Shown here one piece after another: positions 18,870 through 27,207 of a stretch of DNA of 64,000 bases (positions are counted from its first letter, which is position 1; each line of letters starts with the position of its first letter). Location: the NCBI GenBank assembly GCA_016840165.1, contig JAEOSU010000080.1, forward strand, positions 124,001 to 188,000, read 5' to 3'. Under the pieces are notes generated by a model, which saw only the letters and a list, made by a program, of their open reading frames with translations, made no database searches and was not told the origin of the DNA. The position numbers and the translations under genes are program-made. Source of the stretch: Promethearchaeota archaeon (GTDB lineage: Archaea; Asgardarchaeota; Lokiarchaeia; Sigyniarchaeales; SOKP01).

Positions 18870-19616
18870 ATGATGATGAAGCTCTTAGTAATCATTCCTG
18901 CATTTAATGAAGAGAAGACTATTGAGAATGTAGTAAAAAGTATTCCTAATATTCCTAATATAGATCAAGATGTGCTCGTTATCGATGATGGAAGCAGTGA
19001 TAATACTTTAATATATGCTAAAAAACAAGGAGCTGAGACTCGCTCAAATAGAAGAAATATGGGACTTGGTTCGGCTTTTAAATTAGGTTTAAATTATGTT
19101 TTACAAGAAAAAGTCGATTATATAGCAATTTTGGATGCTGATGGACAATATGAGCCATATGGATTAAAAAGACTCATCAATCCAATTATTAATGAAAATT
19201 ATGATTTGGTTATCGGTAATCGTTTCATTAATGGAGGATATTTTGAAGCAAGAACTATAAAACGTCTGGGAAATCTCTTTATTTCTACACTTATATCGAA
19301 AGTATTATTAAGATTAGAGATAGTCTATGATATTCAATCTTCTTTTAGGGCATTCAATAAAAAGTTAGCTATATTTATTTTAAACAATATTAACGCGAAA
19401 TATAATTATGCTCAAGAAATGTTTATTTTAGCTAGCCTATATAGATTCAGGATTAAGCAGATCCCGGTTATATGTAAAAAGAGACATTCAGGAAAATCCA
19501 GACTTATTAAAAACCCAGCTCTCCATATAGTTCGAATATTATGGGTTTGTCTTAAAACATTTATAAAAAATTTTTTTATAAGGAATTACTCTTTTCCCTC
19601 ATCAAGTCCTAATTGA
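18870..19616 (+). CDS. Glycosyltransferase family 2 (DPM1-like)
   Basis: 'VIIPAFNEEKTIENVV', 'VLVIDDGSSDNT', 'YIAILDADGQYEP'. Confidence 0.9.
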   Translation: MMMKLLVIIPAFNEEKTIENVVKSIPNIPNIDQDVLVIDDGSSDNTLIYAKKQGAETRSNRRNMGLGSAFKLGLNYVLQEKVDYIAILDADGQYEPYGLKRLINPIINENYDLVIGNRFINGGYFEARTIKRLGNLFISTLISKVLLRLEIVYDIQSSFRAFNKKLAIFILNNINAKYNYAQEMFILASLYRFRIKQIPVICKKRHSGKSRLIKNPALHIVRILWVCLKTFIKNFFIRNYSFPSSSPN

Positions 19617-20344
19617 GAGATCATCATTCTTTTTAAATCCTGTCTATTTTTTGGCAGCCCAAACATATCTGCATATTTGTCTGTAGTCATTAATTCATGG
19701 CTTCTTCCTTTTTTTTCTGCAGATATTAATTCATTATCAAGGAGATACTTAACATGTTCGTATGCACCAGTACCTCTAATTTTTATGACAGTTGACTTTA
19801 AAATTGGTTGCTTTAAGGCAATTATAGTAAGGGTTCTTAAATACTTTTCCGCTATCGCCCCACCTTTAGTAAATTTGGAAATAGTTTCTGTATATTCCGG
19901 TCTTAGCTGCATTTGGTAGCGCTCTCCAACTTGCGCTATGACAAGCGCACTCGAGCGATCTAAATATTCATATGCAAGTTCGGTGATTAATTCTTCCACC
20001 AACTTTTTTGAGATTTCTAGTTTAGTGGCAATTTCTTCTATATCCAATGGACTTCCAGCAGCATAAAGAGCTCCTTCAATTAAATTTTTTTGGATAATCC
20101 GAAATTCTTTATCTTCATCTAAAGTTTCTTTTTCTATTTTTTCTTCTCCAATATCCATTTCATCGCTGTCCTCACTCTCAATATCTTCGATTTGCTCACT
20201 ATCTTGATCAATAGTATCATTTATTTCAGTATCAGATTCATTATTTTCATGGGATCCTTGTTCTGGATCAGATATGGATTCAACTTCTTTTTGATTTTCA
20301 TCTTTTAAATATTCCTCAATTTGATTTTCTTCCTCATTATCCAT
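19586..20344 (-). CDS. scpB: Segregation and condensation protein B with acidic N-terminal extension
   Basis: 'LIEGALYAAGSPLDIEEIATKLEISKKLVEELITELAYEY', 'IIALKQPILKSTVIKIRGTGAYEHVKYLLDNELI'. Confidence 0.85.
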   Translation of the reverse strand: MDNEEENQIEEYLKDENQKEVESISDPEQGSHENNESDTEINDTIDQDSEQIEDIESEDSDEMDIGEEKIEKETLDEDKEFRIIQKNLIEGALYAAGSPLDIEEIATKLEISKKLVEELITELAYEYLDRSSALVIAQVGERYQMQLRPEYTETISKFTKGGAIAEKYLRTLTIIALKQPILKSTVIKIRGTGAYEHVKYLLDNELISAEKKGRSHELMTTDKYADMFGLPKNRQDLKRMMISQLGLDEGKE

Positions 20345-20359
20345 GGTTTAATCTCCCAA

Positions 20360-21355
20360 TTATCTTATATTAATTATAAAATCCCTAAAATCCTCTTCCT
20401 GGTTTAAGGTTAACTTATTTCCCGTTGAGAGAAACATTAATGCTAAAAACATCCTTACAAATGCAAATCTTCTTCCAATATCAGATGGTTCTTCATTTTT
20501 AATTATTTGAGCTAAATCAAAAAAAGTAGTCTCTACACCTTCTAAGTTTATTTTTGCTTTTATTCGATTAAACCAGGACTCATGTAATTCCTCTATTGAT
20601 TGTTCTCTTCCACTGATATGCTTTAATAATTCTTTTGGTAACTGAGCTTTTGATCTCATCTGGATTTTTTGTTCTTTTAATTGTTCTCTTCGTAATCGTC
20701 TCCGCCTTAATTTCTCTTTATTTTGCATTGTTTCTATTATAGCAGAGCGCATAGCTTCGAATAACTCCTCTTTTGTTGCAATAAGCATTTTTGGCTGCAA
20801 TGGTTGAGATAATGTTTTCGGGATGGTTCTAGCATGCGATTGCCTGAACTTTTCGAGCTCCTCTTTTTTCTGTATTTCCTCCTCTTGTTTAATGATGCTC
20901 GAGATTTTATAGTGATGTAATGATGCAGAGGTTTTGAGAGCAATTCCTGAAATTTTGTAATTTATTAGACTTTCATGGAGCATGTTATCGAAAAATTTGT
21001 CTACCAGTGAAGCTAAGTCGTAAAATGCTACATTTGAATCTTTTGCGAGCTCCGTATCCAACAAACTCGAATAAGGAGGTTTTTGCCAGAATTTCAATTC
21101 CATTTTTTCCTTATACAATAAAGCAGGGTCATCATCTTCCTCTACTCCCGCAATTAATTCTTCTTCTAACTCAACTTCTTGCGTTCGATCAATAAAATCC
21201 GGGTGAGAAACAATCTCCTCCAGTAATTTAATTATATCTTTCTTTTTTGATTTAGAAGGAATTGTAATATTATTTTTTCCAGCAAAATCTCTTAATTGTG
21301 CAACAGTCCATTCAGTAAATTTGTTTTCTTCTTTAGCTTCACTTTCTTTTGAAAT
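20360..21355 (-). CDS. scpA: Segregation and condensation protein A (kleisin), with N-terminal SAP-like domain
   Basis: Track ORF begins at an internal TTG (21118). The frame stays open upstream to about 21369, encoding '(I)SKESEAKEENKFTEWTVAQLRDFAGKNNITIPSKSKKKDIIKLLEEIV...'. Start codon uncertain (possible ATT at 21355). Flanked by smc and scpB. Confidence 0.75.
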   Translation of the reverse strand: MSKESEAKEENKFTEWTVAQLRDFAGKNNITIPSKSKKKDIIKLLEEIVSHPDFIDRTQEVELEEELIAGVEEDDDPALLYKEKMELKFWQKPPYSSLLDTELAKDSNVAFYDLASLVDKFFDNMLHESLINYKISGIALKTSASLHHYKISSIIKQEEEIQKKEELEKFRQSHARTIPKTLSQPLQPKMLIATKEELFEAMRSAIIETMQNKEKLRRRRLRREQLKEQKIQMRSKAQLPKELLKHISGREQSIEELHESWFNRIKAKINLEGVETTFFDLAQIIKNEEPSDIGRRFAFVRMFLALMFLSTGNKLTLNQEEDFRDFIINIR

Positions 21356-21387: not shown

Positions 21388-24300
21388 TTAACTTTCCTCG
21401 ATGTTTGTGGGTACATCCGGTAATTCTAATAATTTTTTAGCCTCCTCCTCTAAATCGACGCTAAATATATCCGTTATACCACTTTGCTGCATTGTGACCC
21501 CATATATTCTATCTGCATTTACAATATTCTCTTCTCGATGACTAATAACCATGAATTGAGCTTGTTGAGCAAATTCTTTAATCACCATGCTTACTCTATG
21601 AACATTTGGACCGTCAAGGGCAGCATCTATTTCATCCATTATATAAAAGGGTGCGGGATAGAACTCCTGCACAGCAAAGATGAATGAGAGAGCTACGAGC
21701 GTTTTCTCTCCTCCACTAAGAATTTCCAAGCTTGAGATCTTCTTTCCTCTTGGTCGTGCTTCTATACTTACACCTCCTTCGAAAGGTTTATCCGGACGAT
21801 CTAAAATCATTTTAGCAGAGCCACCTGGGGATAATTTTTGAAAAATTCGCGAAAATTCTCGATTAATTTCATGATATGCTTTCATAAAAGTACGAGTTTT
21901 CTCAAGTTCAATCTTTTCTATAGCATCTAAGATAGCTTTACGTTCACGTTGGATTGTTTGTCTTCGCATATCGATCTCATCAAAGCGTTCTTTAACGGCA
22001 TCAAATTGTTCTATTGCTTTGAGATTTACAGGTTCCAAAGCATTTTTCTTTTTAGATGCTTCAGATATATCCGATTGGAGTCCAGATTCGGATAAATCAT
22101 CTGTAACAGGAGGAATAACACCATAATCTTTAGAACGATGATAAAGGGTTTCAATTTGATCTTTAGTAATTATAATTCTTGATTCATAATTATTTATTTT
22201 CGAATTTTCCATAGAATAATCTGTTTTTAAATCAGTGATTATTTTCTGATAGTTCTTTTGCTTATTCCAAGATTCATCTTTTTGTTGAATAAATTGATTT
22301 AATTCTTCTTGTTTGAGATTTTTGTTTTGTTTTTCTTGTGATAAATTCTCTTCGAATTTTTTTATTTCTATGGAGATTTTTTCAATTTCTTTCTCAGTAT
22401 CATCAATATCTTGATGTAATGCTAAAATTTTGTTTTCTCTTTCTTTATTTTTATTGATTTCATTTAAATTTCCTTGATTTTTCTGTAAATCATTATTAAG
22501 CTTATTTAGATTCTTTTGAGCGGCTTTCTGGAGCTCTATTTCTTTGCTTTTTTCTTGTCTTAATCCATCAATGATGTTTTGTATTTCATCAACTTTTGAT
22601 TGCAGGCTTTCAATCTGTTTTTTATTTTCCTCAACATTTTTCTTGCTAGCTTCAATATTTATCTTTGCATCTGAATTTTCTTTTGATAAATCCTCAATAG
22701 ACGTAATAATCATCATTATATTATCTAAAGATCTCAATTTGTTCATAGTTTCTTCTAAAATCTTATTTTGTTCGTCGATCTGAACCCTTATACTTTCAGT
22801 GTTTTCCCAAAATTTCTCCTTTTTACCAATTAATTCATTTATATTCGAATTGATGGATTCTTGTTCCCTGTTAACTGAGTCAATTTTATTTTTTATTTCA
22901 TTTATTGTCTCTTTCTTTGAGTCAATGTATTTTTTTAAATCTTCAATATTCGTCTCTATTTCAATAATACTATCAAAAAGAGATTGAATTCCCTGTAATT
23001 CTTGGAGATTTATCTGTAATTGTTCCAACTCTTTTTGTTTCGAATCGATTTTACCTTGAATTATTTCAATATTTTCCCAGTACTTAGATTTTAGATCTTT
23101 TAATTTTTTGATATCATCTTCATAATTTTCTTTTTCTTTTTCATTAATTTGATTACTCCTTTGACTTATTTCCTCTTCAGATTTACTTATAGTCTCACTC
23201 GCCTCAGAGATTTTTCTATTAACTTCATCTAATCGTTTAGTATACAGAGCAAAGTCTTCGGAATCCCGTTTTTTGTTAATATTAACCTCAGTTAATTTAT
23301 TCTCTATGGTATTTAAATCATCTGTTTGAGATGCAATGTTTAGAGAAATCGCCTCGAGTTGTTTATATAGGTCCTGACTCTTAGACATAGTTAGTTTTCT
23401 AAGAGAAATATAGACATTTTCAAGGATTTCCATAAGATCTTGAACAAAACTATCGAAGTTAGTCGTCGATTCTTGAATTTCAACATCAGCAGATTCTTTT
23501 ACTTTAGAAATTAACTGATCAATGGTAGAATCAACATTATCAGTAAATAGAGAAAGGGTTTGGAGTATTGAATTAATAGATTTCGAGGTTTCGCTTTCTT
23601 CATCAGTCTCACCACTAACGTCCTCAATGGTTTTCATAATATCTACGATATCTAATACAAATTTACGGAAATCATCAGCTGAAGTTTCAATAGCCTCAGC
23701 ATTTGATTGTTGTATATTACTCTTTATTGATTCTACACTAATATTGATATTTTGCGTTAACATATTTAGGATTTGAAGTATACCGGTTATATCTTCTGTA
23801 TTTCTCTCATATTCTTTTTCTGTTTTTTCAATTTTTAAAGAAAGTTCTTCTTTTTCTTTTATTAAATCATTTAAGCGTCTTTGAATATTTTCCTTTTTAG
23901 AAACGAGATTATTTTCGTCATTTTCTACTTTAGCGAGATTACTCTTTAGATTATTAACTTTTAACTCTGAATCACTCTTTTCTCGTTCAAGGTTTGTGAA
24001 GTCTCGGTTTACTAATTTTAATTTTGTATTTAGGTTTTCTATTTTTGCTTTGTGGTCATATATTTCTGATTCTATAGAATCTTGCTTCATTATCAATAAT
24101 TCTAAATCTTGTTCATATTTTCTGAATGTTGAATTTTCTTGTTGATATTCTTTCTTTAACTTATTTAATTCATTATTAATTGCTGATTTTTTATTCAGCA
24201 TTTCCTTTAAAACGATTTCTGTATCTTTACCCTCACTTAATTCTTTAATTCTGTTCTCAATTAATGTCTTTTTTTCCTCCATTTCCGCTATTCTCGTGTT

Positions 24301-25851
24301 ATTAATATTAATTTCCGTAGTTAAAGAGGATAAGGAGGATTGAAAGGCTAATTGATTTGAATTTAATTCACTTTGCTTATCCTGTAATTCTTTAATTTGA
24401 TTCTCTAGATTTTTCTGGTTTTGATTTTCTTTTGATATAGCTGATTTCAATTCATTTATTTTCTTTCTTATTGCGAGCTCCTCTTTTTTTGTAGCATCTA
24501 TTGCATCCTCTATACTTTCTGCCTCTCCTTTTAATTTTTTAAGATCCTCCTCTAATTTTATTTTCTTCTCTTCATTCTTCTTGATGTTCTCTTTAAGTAC
24601 TTTGATTTGAGCATTATCAGATGAAATATTTTGCTTCACATTTGAAATATCTGATTTAAACTTAGATTGTTCTTCATTTTTAAGCTTGATTTGATTATCT
24701 AAATCAGCTTGATTTTGCTGTCTTGTTTCTATTTCTTCTTTTGATTCTTCGATTAGTTTTTCAGTTTCAGAAATTTTGTTAGTAAATTCGCTTATAATTG
24801 AATCATAGGTTTGTCCCTCCTCAAGTTTCATCTGTTTATTCTCTAATGATACAATTTCTTTAGAATATTTATCAATAGTTTTCTTTGCAATTTCTAAACT
24901 GGTCTGATGAGAAGAGAGTTGAGTTTTTAATTGAGTAATATTTTCGTTAATAGTTTCTTTTTCCTTTTCCTTCTCAGTAATTGTTTTTTGGATGTTATCC
25001 ATGAGGAATGATTCCTGTTTTAATATTTCTTCTTGTCTAGTTATCCTCTCTTCCAGTTCCTCAATAATTTTGGTTGATTGCTCAACATTTTGCTGTAAAT
25101 TTTCTTCCTCCTCTTTTAATTTCGAAATCTTTAGAGCGATTAATTGAGCATTATAATATTTTATTTTTTCATCTAATTCCTTCCAAGCTAATGCATCATT
25201 CTTTTCTTTTTCAACTTTCTTCAACTGAGAGGATACCTCTTTAAAGATAGCTTCGAATTGACCCAAATCTCTCTCAGCTTTTTCTAGTTCTTTCATTGTT
25301 GCATCTTTCATTTCATCGTATTTCTGAAGGCCTATGAGTTCTTCAATAAAATCCCTTCGATTCTCCGGATTCATATGAGTCAATTCAACAATTTTCCCTT
25401 GTAAAACAAACTGATTTGTTCCATCAGGATCTATATTCGCAGTAGCTAGAGCATTTAGAATTTGCTGACGAGTTGCTCTTTTGCCATTTATTTTATATCC
25501 GCCCCCACCACCACGTTTAATTGAACGAGATACTTCAAATGTGTCACCTGGAGTAGGGAAAATATTCTCAGAATTATCGAAATATAGGCTAACCTTCGCT
25601 CTCTGAGAAGGATTCTTTCCTCTAGACCCCGCAAATATTAAATCTTCCAGACTCTTAGCTCTCATCGTCTTTTTGCTTAACCTTCCTAATGCAAATGTTA
25701 ATGCATCAATAATATTGGATTTTCCTGCTCCGTTTGGTCCCACAATGCAAGTAAAGCCACTTGAAAGCTTAATTGTTACAGTCCGGTCGCCAAAACTTTT
25801 AAACCCAGTCATTGATATTTTTTTTATGTGAGTCATCACATTATTCCTCAA
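21388..25851 (-). CDS. smc: SMC-family chromosome segregation ATPase (1487 aa, atypical hinge region)
   Basis: Walker A 'FTCIVGPNGAGKSNIIDALTFALG'; C-terminal 'LEILSGGEKTLVALSFIFAVQEFYPAPFYIMDEIDAALD'; long coiled coils; scpA and scpB downstream. Confidence 0.92.
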   Translation of the reverse strand: MRNNVMTHIKKISMTGFKSFGDRTVTIKLSSGFTCIVGPNGAGKSNIIDALTFALGRLSKKTMRAKSLEDLIFAGSRGKNPSQRAKVSLYFDNSENIFPTPGDTFEVSRSIKRGGGGGYKINGKRATRQQILNALATANIDPDGTNQFVLQGKIVELTHMNPENRRDFIEELIGLQKYDEMKDATMKELEKAERDLGQFEAIFKEVSSQLKKVEKEKNDALAWKELDEKIKYYNAQLIALKISKLKEEEENLQQNVEQSTKIIEELEERITRQEEILKQESFLMDNIQKTITEKEKEKETINENITQLKTQLSSHQTSLEIAKKTIDKYSKEIVSLENKQMKLEEGQTYDSIISEFTNKISETEKLIEESKEEIETRQQNQADLDNQIKLKNEEQSKFKSDISNVKQNISSDNAQIKVLKENIKKNEEKKIKLEEDLKKLKGEAESIEDAIDATKKEELAIRKKINELKSAISKENQNQKNLENQIKELQDKQSELNSNQLAFQSSLSSLTTEININNTRIAEMEEKKTLIENRIKELSEGKDTEIVLKEMLNKKSAINNELNKLKKEYQQENSTFRKYEQDLELLIMKQDSIESEIYDHKAKIENLNTKLKLVNRDFTNLEREKSDSELKVNNLKSNLAKVENDENNLVSKKENIQRRLNDLIKEKEELSLKIEKTEKEYERNTEDITGILQILNMLTQNINISVESIKSNIQQSNAEAIETSADDFRKFVLDIVDIMKTIEDVSGETDEESETSKSINSILQTLSLFTDNVDSTIDQLISKVKESADVEIQESTTNFDSFVQDLMEILENVYISLRKLTMSKSQDLYKQLEAISLNIASQTDDLNTIENKLTEVNINKKRDSEDFALYTKRLDEVNRKISEASETISKSEEEISQRSNQINEKEKENYEDDIKKLKDLKSKYWENIEIIQGKIDSKQKELEQLQINLQELQGIQSLFDSIIEIETNIEDLKKYIDSKKETINEIKNKIDSVNREQESINSNINELIGKKEKFWENTESIRVQIDEQNKILEETMNKLRSLDNIMMIITSIEDLSKENSDAKINIEASKKNVEENKKQIESLQSKVDEIQNIIDGLRQEKSKEIELQKAAQKNLNKLNNDLQKNQGNLNEINKNKERENKILALHQDIDDTEKEIEKISIEIKKFEENLSQEKQNKNLKQEELNQFIQQKDESWNKQKNYQKIITDLKTDYSMENSKINNYESRIIITKDQIETLYHRSKDYGVIPPVTDDLSESGLQSDISEASKKKNALEPVNLKAIEQFDAVKERFDEIDMRRQTIQRERKAILDAIEKIELEKTRTFMKAYHEINREFSRIFQKLSPGGSAKMILDRPDKPFEGGVSIEARPRGKKISSLEILSGGEKTLVALSFIFAVQEFYPAPFYIMDEIDAALDGPNVHRVSMVIKEFAQQAQFMVISHREENIVNADRIYGVTMQQSGITDIFSVDLEEEAKKLLELPDVPTNIEES

Positions 25852-26016: not shown

Positions 26017-27207
26017 TTATTTGCCAAATATGGAATCTACAATCGCCTTAAGCTGTTTAGGATTAATAAATAAATAAAAAGATGTATCATCTGAAATCTT
26101 GCTAAAGATAGAACCCCTTTCAAATTTAAAACTCTTTTTAGAGATATTGATTAATCCCACACTCCTTAAATTTCGCAAAATGTCATTATATTGAGTTTTA
26201 CTGGCAATATATTCTATTGATTCACATGAGATGATATATAACTCTTTTAGCTTTTTATTAGATATGTAGTAATTAGAATTTCTTAAGAAAAAGTTTGCTA
26301 GATTATCCAGAAATATAATAATAAGGAGTTCTTCTTCAGAAATATAGGAAAGCAACGAAAATTCGTCTGAAATTTGGATGGAGTCAAATTGATTTTGAAT
26401 GAGTGAGATAAAATCTAAATGACTGATATATTTTGGATCTTTAAGAAGAGGATATAATTCTTTAAATATTTCAATTCCTTTTCCAGGCACGGGTACATAA
26501 TGTTCAAAAATTAAGTCTGTGATGTATTCAATCAATTCAATATCTATTTCGTGCATAAAAGTTAATGAAACTCTTTGTTTTAGAATATCTAATAATTCAG
26601 AATAAGAATAGAATTCTAATTTTTTTTTGTAATCAAACTCATTTAAAAGATCAAAAGTCTCACTTCGATTTACTCTATTTACTGTAGAAATTATTGTTGT
26701 TTTCGTCTCTTTTCCATAATTCAAAAATTTTTTGAAGTTTTGAGGTTTTAAATCTTCAATATTATTAAAAACCATAATCAACGGATTAGTAATTTTACTG
26801 GTTATCAGTTTAAATGTATTCCATAACTCAGATACACTAGCCTTTAAAAATGAAGTTAAATTTAGCTCAAAATTGCACATAAACGAGAGATCTGAGATTA
26901 AACCGAAAAAAATTTCATGCAGATTTTTGTCTTTACAATCTACACTAACTTCATAGATTATTGAATCCAATTGATTTTGATAGATTAGGTCTTTAGTAAC
27001 TTTATTTATTATAACTTTTTTACCTATTCCTTGCAGTCCTTGATATAGGACATTGCAACAGAAATTATCCGATAATGAATCGTTTAGAAGAGATTTAAGA
27101 TAATTCTCTTCTTTAGCTCGATATAATATTTTTGGAGGGACATAATTAACATCAAATAATGCTTTAGGACCAATATAATCATTAAATGTTTCAGATTTTA
27201 CTATCAT
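26017..27207 (-). CDS. Orc1/Cdc6-like AAA+ protein with degenerate ATPase motifs
   Basis: 'PPKILYRAKEENYLKSLLND...NVLYQGLQGIGKKVIINKV' (degenerate Walker A), 'LIMVFNNIEDL' (degenerate Walker B), C-terminal winged-helix-like region. Confidence 0.5.
   Translation of the reverse strand: MIVKSETFNDYIGPKALFDVNYVPPKILYRAKEENYLKSLLNDSLSDNFCCNVLYQGLQGIGKKVIINKVTKDLIYQNQLDSIIYEVSVDCKDKNLHEIFFGLISDLSFMCNFELNLTSFLKASVSELWNTFKLITSKITNPLIMVFNNIEDLKPQNFKKFLNYGKETKTTIISTVNRVNRSETFDLLNEFDYKKKLEFYSYSELLDILKQRVSLTFMHEIDIELIEYITDLIFEHYVPVPGKGIEIFKELYPLLKDPKYISHLDFISLIQNQFDSIQISDEFSLLSYISEEELLIIIFLDNLANFFLRNSNYYISNKKLKELYIISCESIEYIASKTQYNDILRNLRSVGLINISKKSFKFERGSIFSKISDDTSFYLFINPKQLKAIVDSIFGK

Follow-up and report, generated by a model that had tools for sequence, protein, structure and literature searches.

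The 64,000-nucleotide stretch of Promethearchaeota DNA analyzed here (hereafter the window) encodes an SMC protein that has no toroidal hinge at its center, bears a conserved duplicated tip there, and has lengthened arms, all three properties being shown by sequence (Table 1). On the reading that we consider likely, the protein belongs to an SMC-ScpAB condensin whose hinge was replaced by a helical hairpin tip that dimerizes to close the ring, with the dimerization itself remaining an inference. The window's protein is counted below among the long proteins, as distinct from a second hinge-less form of 1308 aa.

Table 1. Features of the hinge-less smc locus, in coordinates of the window
Feature	Coordinates	Strand	Residues (aa)	Basis or remark
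smc (hinge-less SMC)	21388..25851	minus	1487 from TTG	SMC_N 2.3e-46; orthologs
N-terminal ATPase head half	25162..25836	minus	6-230	Walker A GPNGAGKS; phmmer; low entropy
N-arm module N1	24712..25002	minus	284-380	hhalign to N2 7e-9, to N3 6e-9
N-arm module N2	24418..24711	minus	381-478	hhalign to N3 2e-16
N-arm module N3	24124..24417	minus	479-576	about one such unit absent from the 1308-aa form
Tip repeat R1	23626..23790	minus	688-742	N-arm side helix of predicted apical hairpin
Acidic linker / hairpin turn	23578..23625	minus	743-758	between predicted helices; main indel site of the center
Tip repeat R2	23413..23577	minus	759-813	C-arm side helix of predicted apical hairpin
C-arm module C1	22846..23115	minus	913-1002	hhalign to C2 2e-14
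C-arm module C2	22576..22845	minus	1003-1092	hhalign and module matches
C-terminal ATPase head half	21424..22089	minus	1255-1476	signature LSGGE, Walker B FYIMDEIDAALD; phmmer
scpA-like kleisin	20360..21118	minus		PF02616 E=0.008 alone; up to 5e-10 in aligned relatives
scpB kite subunit	19586..20344	minus		PF04079 3e-35

Absence of a hinge and presence of a duplicated tip

Searched with Pfam SMC_hinge, the window's SMC gave no match at E<=1, and none was obtained for the full-length long SMC of Prometheoarchaeum syntrophicum MK-D1 or for the full-length 1308-aa form, while the canonical SMC of MK-D1, serving as positive control, matched at 4e-29. Nor was this domain among the 25 most frequent families matched by 34 aligned center regions, that of the window included. 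When a profile of the 34 centers was compared with a profile of 13 Asgard hinges, the probability was 2.9% and only arm coil was aligned; a profile search of solved structures with the SMC center likewise returned coiled-coil-like matches only. AlphaFold2 folding of the center, carried out for the monomer only and with a shallow alignment of 34 sequences, produced helices at 2-149, 155-172 and 174-300 and zero strands (pLDDT 85 overall, 64-82 in the tip; pTM 0.47), that is, a predicted continuous antiparallel helical hairpin. Under the same protocol, the nearest hinge-bearing relative yielded an alpha/beta domain from only 13 sequences, and its best PDB matches were solved SMC hinges (best 2.3e-11), even with a lead sequence that is itself a weak Pfam SMC_hinge match (1.2e-5).

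A referee might object that the center is a highly diverged canonical hinge missed by sequence methods and by AlphaFold2 alike. Two points favor this reading: the hinge of the sister lineage described below is already diverged (SMC_hinge E 1e-5 to 1e-11), and canonical hinges are also built of two similar halves. Against it, however, stand the lack of any predicted strand at pLDDT 85 when the control hinge was recovered with fewer sequences, the absence of profile similarity and of a hinge among the families most often matched by the 34 centers, an apex of only about 125 residues, and helical hydrophobic periodicity throughout, which leave it with almost no standing.

The two repeats at the tip are strongly supported as a duplication. 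Their ungapped alignment has a BLOSUM62 score of 90, compared with -29 +/- 17 for shuffled sequences (maximum 42 in 20,000), and hhalign of the two half-profiles gave E=4e-13 over 61 columns. Within both arms of a 32-sequence profile, R1/R2 was the top ungapped 55-residue pair (76.9; runner-up 67.4). All 32 aligned long proteins, the window's included, keep the repeat (z 5.6-8.1, 10-19 identities), with shuffles never reaching the observed score, and the repeat is present in the 1308-aa form too (z 6.9). Between unrelated arm segments, comparisons yielded P values down to 4e-5, and module or repeat matches were trusted only when far below that value. Mere coiled-coil likeness was rejected as an explanation, since no other ungapped 55-residue pair scores as high as the tip pair, whose helical period also differs.

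Several properties set the tip apart from the adjoining arms. It is better conserved: entropy per 25-residue block is 0.8-1.3 (1.5 including the linker) versus 1.4-2.0 in adjacent arm blocks, and in the alignment nearly all length variation of the center lies in the linker. The hydrophobic period is 3.62-3.67 at the tip, a hendecad-like value that runs slightly past R2 and resembles that of straight helical bundles, versus 3.39-3.59 in arm windows. With a mean net charge of -17 the tip is strongly acidic, and no conserved cysteine was found in it, the window's tip having none and a single cysteine occurring in only 4 of the 32 long proteins. Its best fold neighbors in the PDB were chemoreceptor hairpins (2ch7, E 6.6e-4) and SMC coils, which are generic coiled coils.

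These results bear on most of a preliminary description of the gene, made from sequence alone, which had reported two homologous ungapped segments at residues 688-742 and 759-813 with 16 of 55 identities and no recognizable hinge. The coordinates and the identity count were reproduced. The absence of a hinge also held, since the SMC_hinge search that the description had named as a refuting check found none; a predicted canonical hinge fold, which would equally have refuted it, was not obtained for this center, whereas it was for the hinge-bearing relative. Conservation of the repeat in relatives held as well. The proposed duplicated helical module held with a nuance: in the predicted structure R1 and R2 run antiparallel as the two sides of a single hairpin with local two-fold pseudo-symmetry, and do not form a separate folded module.

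Heads, partner genes and arms

Both halves of the ATPase head are intact, and their nearest solved structures by phmmer are the Smc heads of Pyrococcus and Bacillus subtilis; entropy of the C-terminal half is 0.2-0.7 across most of its length. Translation probably starts at the ATG of residue 6, giving 1482 aa, because residues 1-5 are unconserved among orthologs. An assembly or frameshift artifact was excluded, with dozens of independent genomes, including one complete chromosome, carrying a hinge-less SMC. The kleisin and kite genes both lie downstream of smc, an order shared with MK-D1, Harpocratesius repetitus and the family with the 1308-aa form. ScpA is divergent, and its weak match when searched alone is backed by relatives and by gene order. 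Judged against the criteria we applied for Smc-ScpAB, the locus has the Walker A, signature and Walker B motifs of an ABC ATPase whose head is split, long antiparallel coiled-coil arms (of which only the part near the tip was modeled), and kleisin and kite partner genes; what it lacks is the toroidal SMC_hinge dimerization domain at mid-protein.

An alternative identity, a Rad50- or RecN-like repair ATPase rather than a condensin, draws on the hinge-free coiled-coil apex, which is typical of Rad50, and on scan matches to Rad50 and RecN models. It can be practically ruled out: the protein exceeds the cut-off of the NCBIfam SMC_prok_B model (TIGR02168; 603 bits, cut-off 567), whereas no Rad50 model scores above 111 bits, with cut-offs at 700-1087; the absence of a conserved cysteine excludes a Zn-hook, so that the CxxC criterion for Rad50 is not met; and the heads are nearest to Smc, with scpA and scpB as neighbors. 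A defense-system reading was also rejected, the PADLOC matches looking like generic SMC-like heads and coils.

Some further observations concern the neighboring genes. Directly upstream of smc (window positions 26017-27207, minus strand) lies a divergent Orc1/Cdc6-like gene (TIGR02928 3.5e-12, far under the cut-off), and a related gene occupies the same place in another genome (G034, locus L151). In the Prometheoarchaeum family (L139:8706-10842, L138:8713-10844), the N-terminus is long in both partner proteins, acidic in ScpB and forming a lysine-rich tail in ScpA. One scanned ScpA, by its sequence probably that of L151, has a match of the Ish1/HeH/SAP type.

The arms are lengthened, and by sequence this is shown. 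Between the same head landmarks in every form, arms average 354 residues for the sister lineage that has a hinge; the hinge-less forms have longer ones, averaging 393 at 1308 aa (415/371) and 485 in the long proteins (511/460). All four long proteins measured have the identical N-arm length, 511. The long form thus exceeds the 1308-aa form by about 96 and 89 residues, or one module per arm. Alignment of these two forms leaves a gap of 97 residues in the N-arm, and C1 and C2 both best match one single stretch of the 1308-aa form; module searches agreed, counting three N and two C modules in the long form where the short one has two N modules and a single C1/C2 module. Natural SMC arms vary in steps of about 100 residues (Bürmann et al., PMC5344682). 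A paired duplication of a module of about 90-97 residues would explain one such step, as inferred from a single lineage, and so offers a simple origin for a puzzling ~100-residue arm step, one tandem module gained per arm; the step from 354 to 393 is left unexplained by it. The earlier claim that the arms are longer than typical therefore held, and the tandem duplications within them, like the probable ATG start, go beyond what that description contained.

Distribution and descent

A search with the tip profile found it in 69 of the 231 genomes of the phylum, with all carriers inside one Lokiarchaeia order (families f1-f4), cultured MK-D1 included, except for one Hodarchaeota contig. In a scan of 85,462 species genomes, which relies on conserved peptide patterns and may miss distant relatives, only Lokiarchaeota/Lokiarchaeia MAGs, Prometheoarchaeum, Harpocratesius and the same Hodarchaeota contig were recovered. 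That contig (L146; G107, JAEOTC010000276.1) is a single 8.6-kb piece in one Hodarchaeota MAG carrying a hinge-less smc-scpA-scpB set. We set aside a presence in Hodarchaeota, as the tree puts the contig inside a Lokiarchaeia family and it is probably mis-binned or recently transferred.

No canonical SMC was found in any of the 24 genomes of the window's genus, seven of which are at least 98% complete, making the hinge-less protein the only ScpAB-type SMC found there. The sole hinge match in the genus is weak and lies in a separate SMC-like protein of ~1150 aa. This second protein (L001; G000:C54:291524-294865), with its weak hinge match, occurs in nearly all genomes of the order, and a Smc5/6-like identity is raised for it only as a question. 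A strong canonical hinge is present in 18 genomes of the order, most of which also hold a second, weaker-scoring ScpB, and MK-D1 carries the hinge-less and the canonical SMC side by side.

The hinge-less SMC could on these grounds be regarded as a specialized paralog and not the main condensin, given that several related genomes, among them MK-D1, encode it alongside a canonical SMC that has a separate ScpB. We think this very improbable, as many near-complete genomes, in the window's genus and in several others, contain the hinge-less SMC alone; a change of role in one sub-lineage remains conceivable. The preliminary description had called the protein probably the main condensin on account of its scpA and scpB neighbors, and that claim is supported by the gene order together with the lack of a canonical SMC in the 24 genomes.

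In the tree of head sequences, the hinge-less proteins form one clade (100%) that adjoins canonical SMCs from other families of the same class (93%) and not the canonical SMCs that some Lokiarchaeia genomes carry; the main alternative placement is only marginally rejected (AU p=0.049). The sister lineage retains its diverged hinge, and its SMCs also have an scpB-like gene adjacent or nearby. Because relatives bear a hinge under either placement, loss and replacement is the simpler reading, and we regard it as likely. The suggestion in the preliminary description that the toroidal hinge was replaced is supported by this tree.

Proposed mechanism and comparison with known systems

In the mechanism that we propose, two SMCs would dimerize when their tips, acidic and hendecad-phased, pack together as a helical bundle, an inference for which there are no dimerization data, and heads, kleisin and tips would, again by inference, still close a ring able to hold double-stranded DNA and extrude loops. 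A tip-closed ring is plausible because the B. subtilis Smc hinge can be swapped for an unrelated Rad50 Zn-hook with normal growth (PMC5344682) and because the Wadjet core works given a closed ring, its elbow-to-hinge segment being dispensable for extrusion and needed for bypass (PMC12647877). The positively charged channel of the hinge has been tied to single-strand capture and obstacle bypass (PMC12647877). The tip would be without this channel, by means of which canonical hinges take in single strands and pass obstacles. Being helical and acidic, the tip is expected to lack single-strand capture and bypass, which leads to the prediction of extrusion without hinge bypass; longer arms may make up for the loss, since larger obstacles could then pass through the lumen. 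Against a dimerizing tip, its strong acidity could disfavor self-association, and the mechanism is further limited by the monomer-only folding, the shallow alignment, the tip pLDDT and pTM given above, the generic structural neighbors and the divergent ScpA.

A different use of the tip is suggested by a headless protein of 925-1118 aa found in six genomes of the MK-D1 (Prometheoarchaeum) family (L143:1319-4093 in MK-D1; L140, L141, L142, L144, L145). It has two tip pairs, in which three repeats are clear and one is diverged; its C-terminal half looks beta-rich from the sequence alone and has zero Pfam matches, and its tail is lysine-rich and histone-H1-like. Within that family, a canonical SMC occurs in exactly these six genomes, a co-occurrence that shared ancestry could explain. 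In the window's family no full-length copy turned up, and the headless protein is therefore not generally required for tip function.

On the rival reading, the tip would be a docking site for another protein, such as this headless protein or an unknown partner, without self-association, and the only links between the SMCs would be ScpAB and the heads, unless the partner bridged their tips. The existence in six genomes of a protein with two tip copies and a lysine-rich tail supports it, as does the acidity of the tip. We nevertheless judge it unlikely, since the window's family keeps the tip equally conserved with no headless protein found there, and since Wadjet lost its extrusion-dependent cleavage once the ring was opened (PMC12647877). 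A bolder reading, in which a new apex module evolved in Lokiarchaeia, replaced the hinge and also became a stand-alone adaptor, the headless protein docking on SMC tips and cross-linking condensins with one another or with DNA, is doubtful too; if true, it would mean a tip-networked chromosome scaffold. The dimerizing tip remains our preferred reading.

Nearly all SMC motors are regarded as having a hinge. Its fold has been proposed to be irrelevant to chromosome segregation in B. subtilis (PMC5344682), and its conserved role has been proposed to be that of a single-strand gate for obstacle bypass, not extrusion itself (PMC12647877). A whole Asgard lineage seems to have run the hinge-swap experiment, and cultured MK-D1 carries both forms, which provides a natural test of hinge function and makes the role of the hinge directly testable. 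No description of a hinge-less Loki SMC was found in the open-access literature searched, preprints excluded; a 2026 Asgard review touches on SMC only in passing (PMC12993045).

Among known systems, a hinge-less SMC of uncultured ocean bacteria (PMC12153180) is also a member of the SMC head family without a hinge domain, but it is bacterial, tentatively actinobacterial, and neither a duplicated tip nor a ScpAB context was found in the passages bearing on it; this likeness rests on the description only, without sequence comparison. The cytoplasmic hairpins of methyl-accepting chemoreceptors, the best PDB neighbors of the tip, pack as dimeric four-helix bundles, which for the tip can serve only as an analogy, and the sequence relationship is not significant (MCPsignal E 0.017, 15 bits versus a cut-off of 34.6). 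Rad50/SbcC shares a coiled-coil hairpin apex without a hinge toroid, whereas the Loki SMC has no CxxC hook and has Smc-type heads and ScpAB partners. With the Smc-ScpAB of B. subtilis and Pyrococcus, it shares head motifs, a kleisin and kite operon, and long antiparallel arms, and differs in having a duplicated hairpin apex in the absence of a hinge, and arms of ~485 versus ~344-354 residues. The Wadjet JetC core construct (PMC12647877) is an engineered truncation held by a disulfide, unlike the natural Loki apex. In effect the Loki protein, as interpreted here, is a natural counterpart of the engineered B. subtilis Smc(Zn-hook) chimera (PMC5344682), likewise a condensin with an unrelated apex in place of the hinge and one that grows normally; that chimera is artificial and uses a cysteine-based zinc hook, whereas the Loki tip is natural and has no conserved cysteine.
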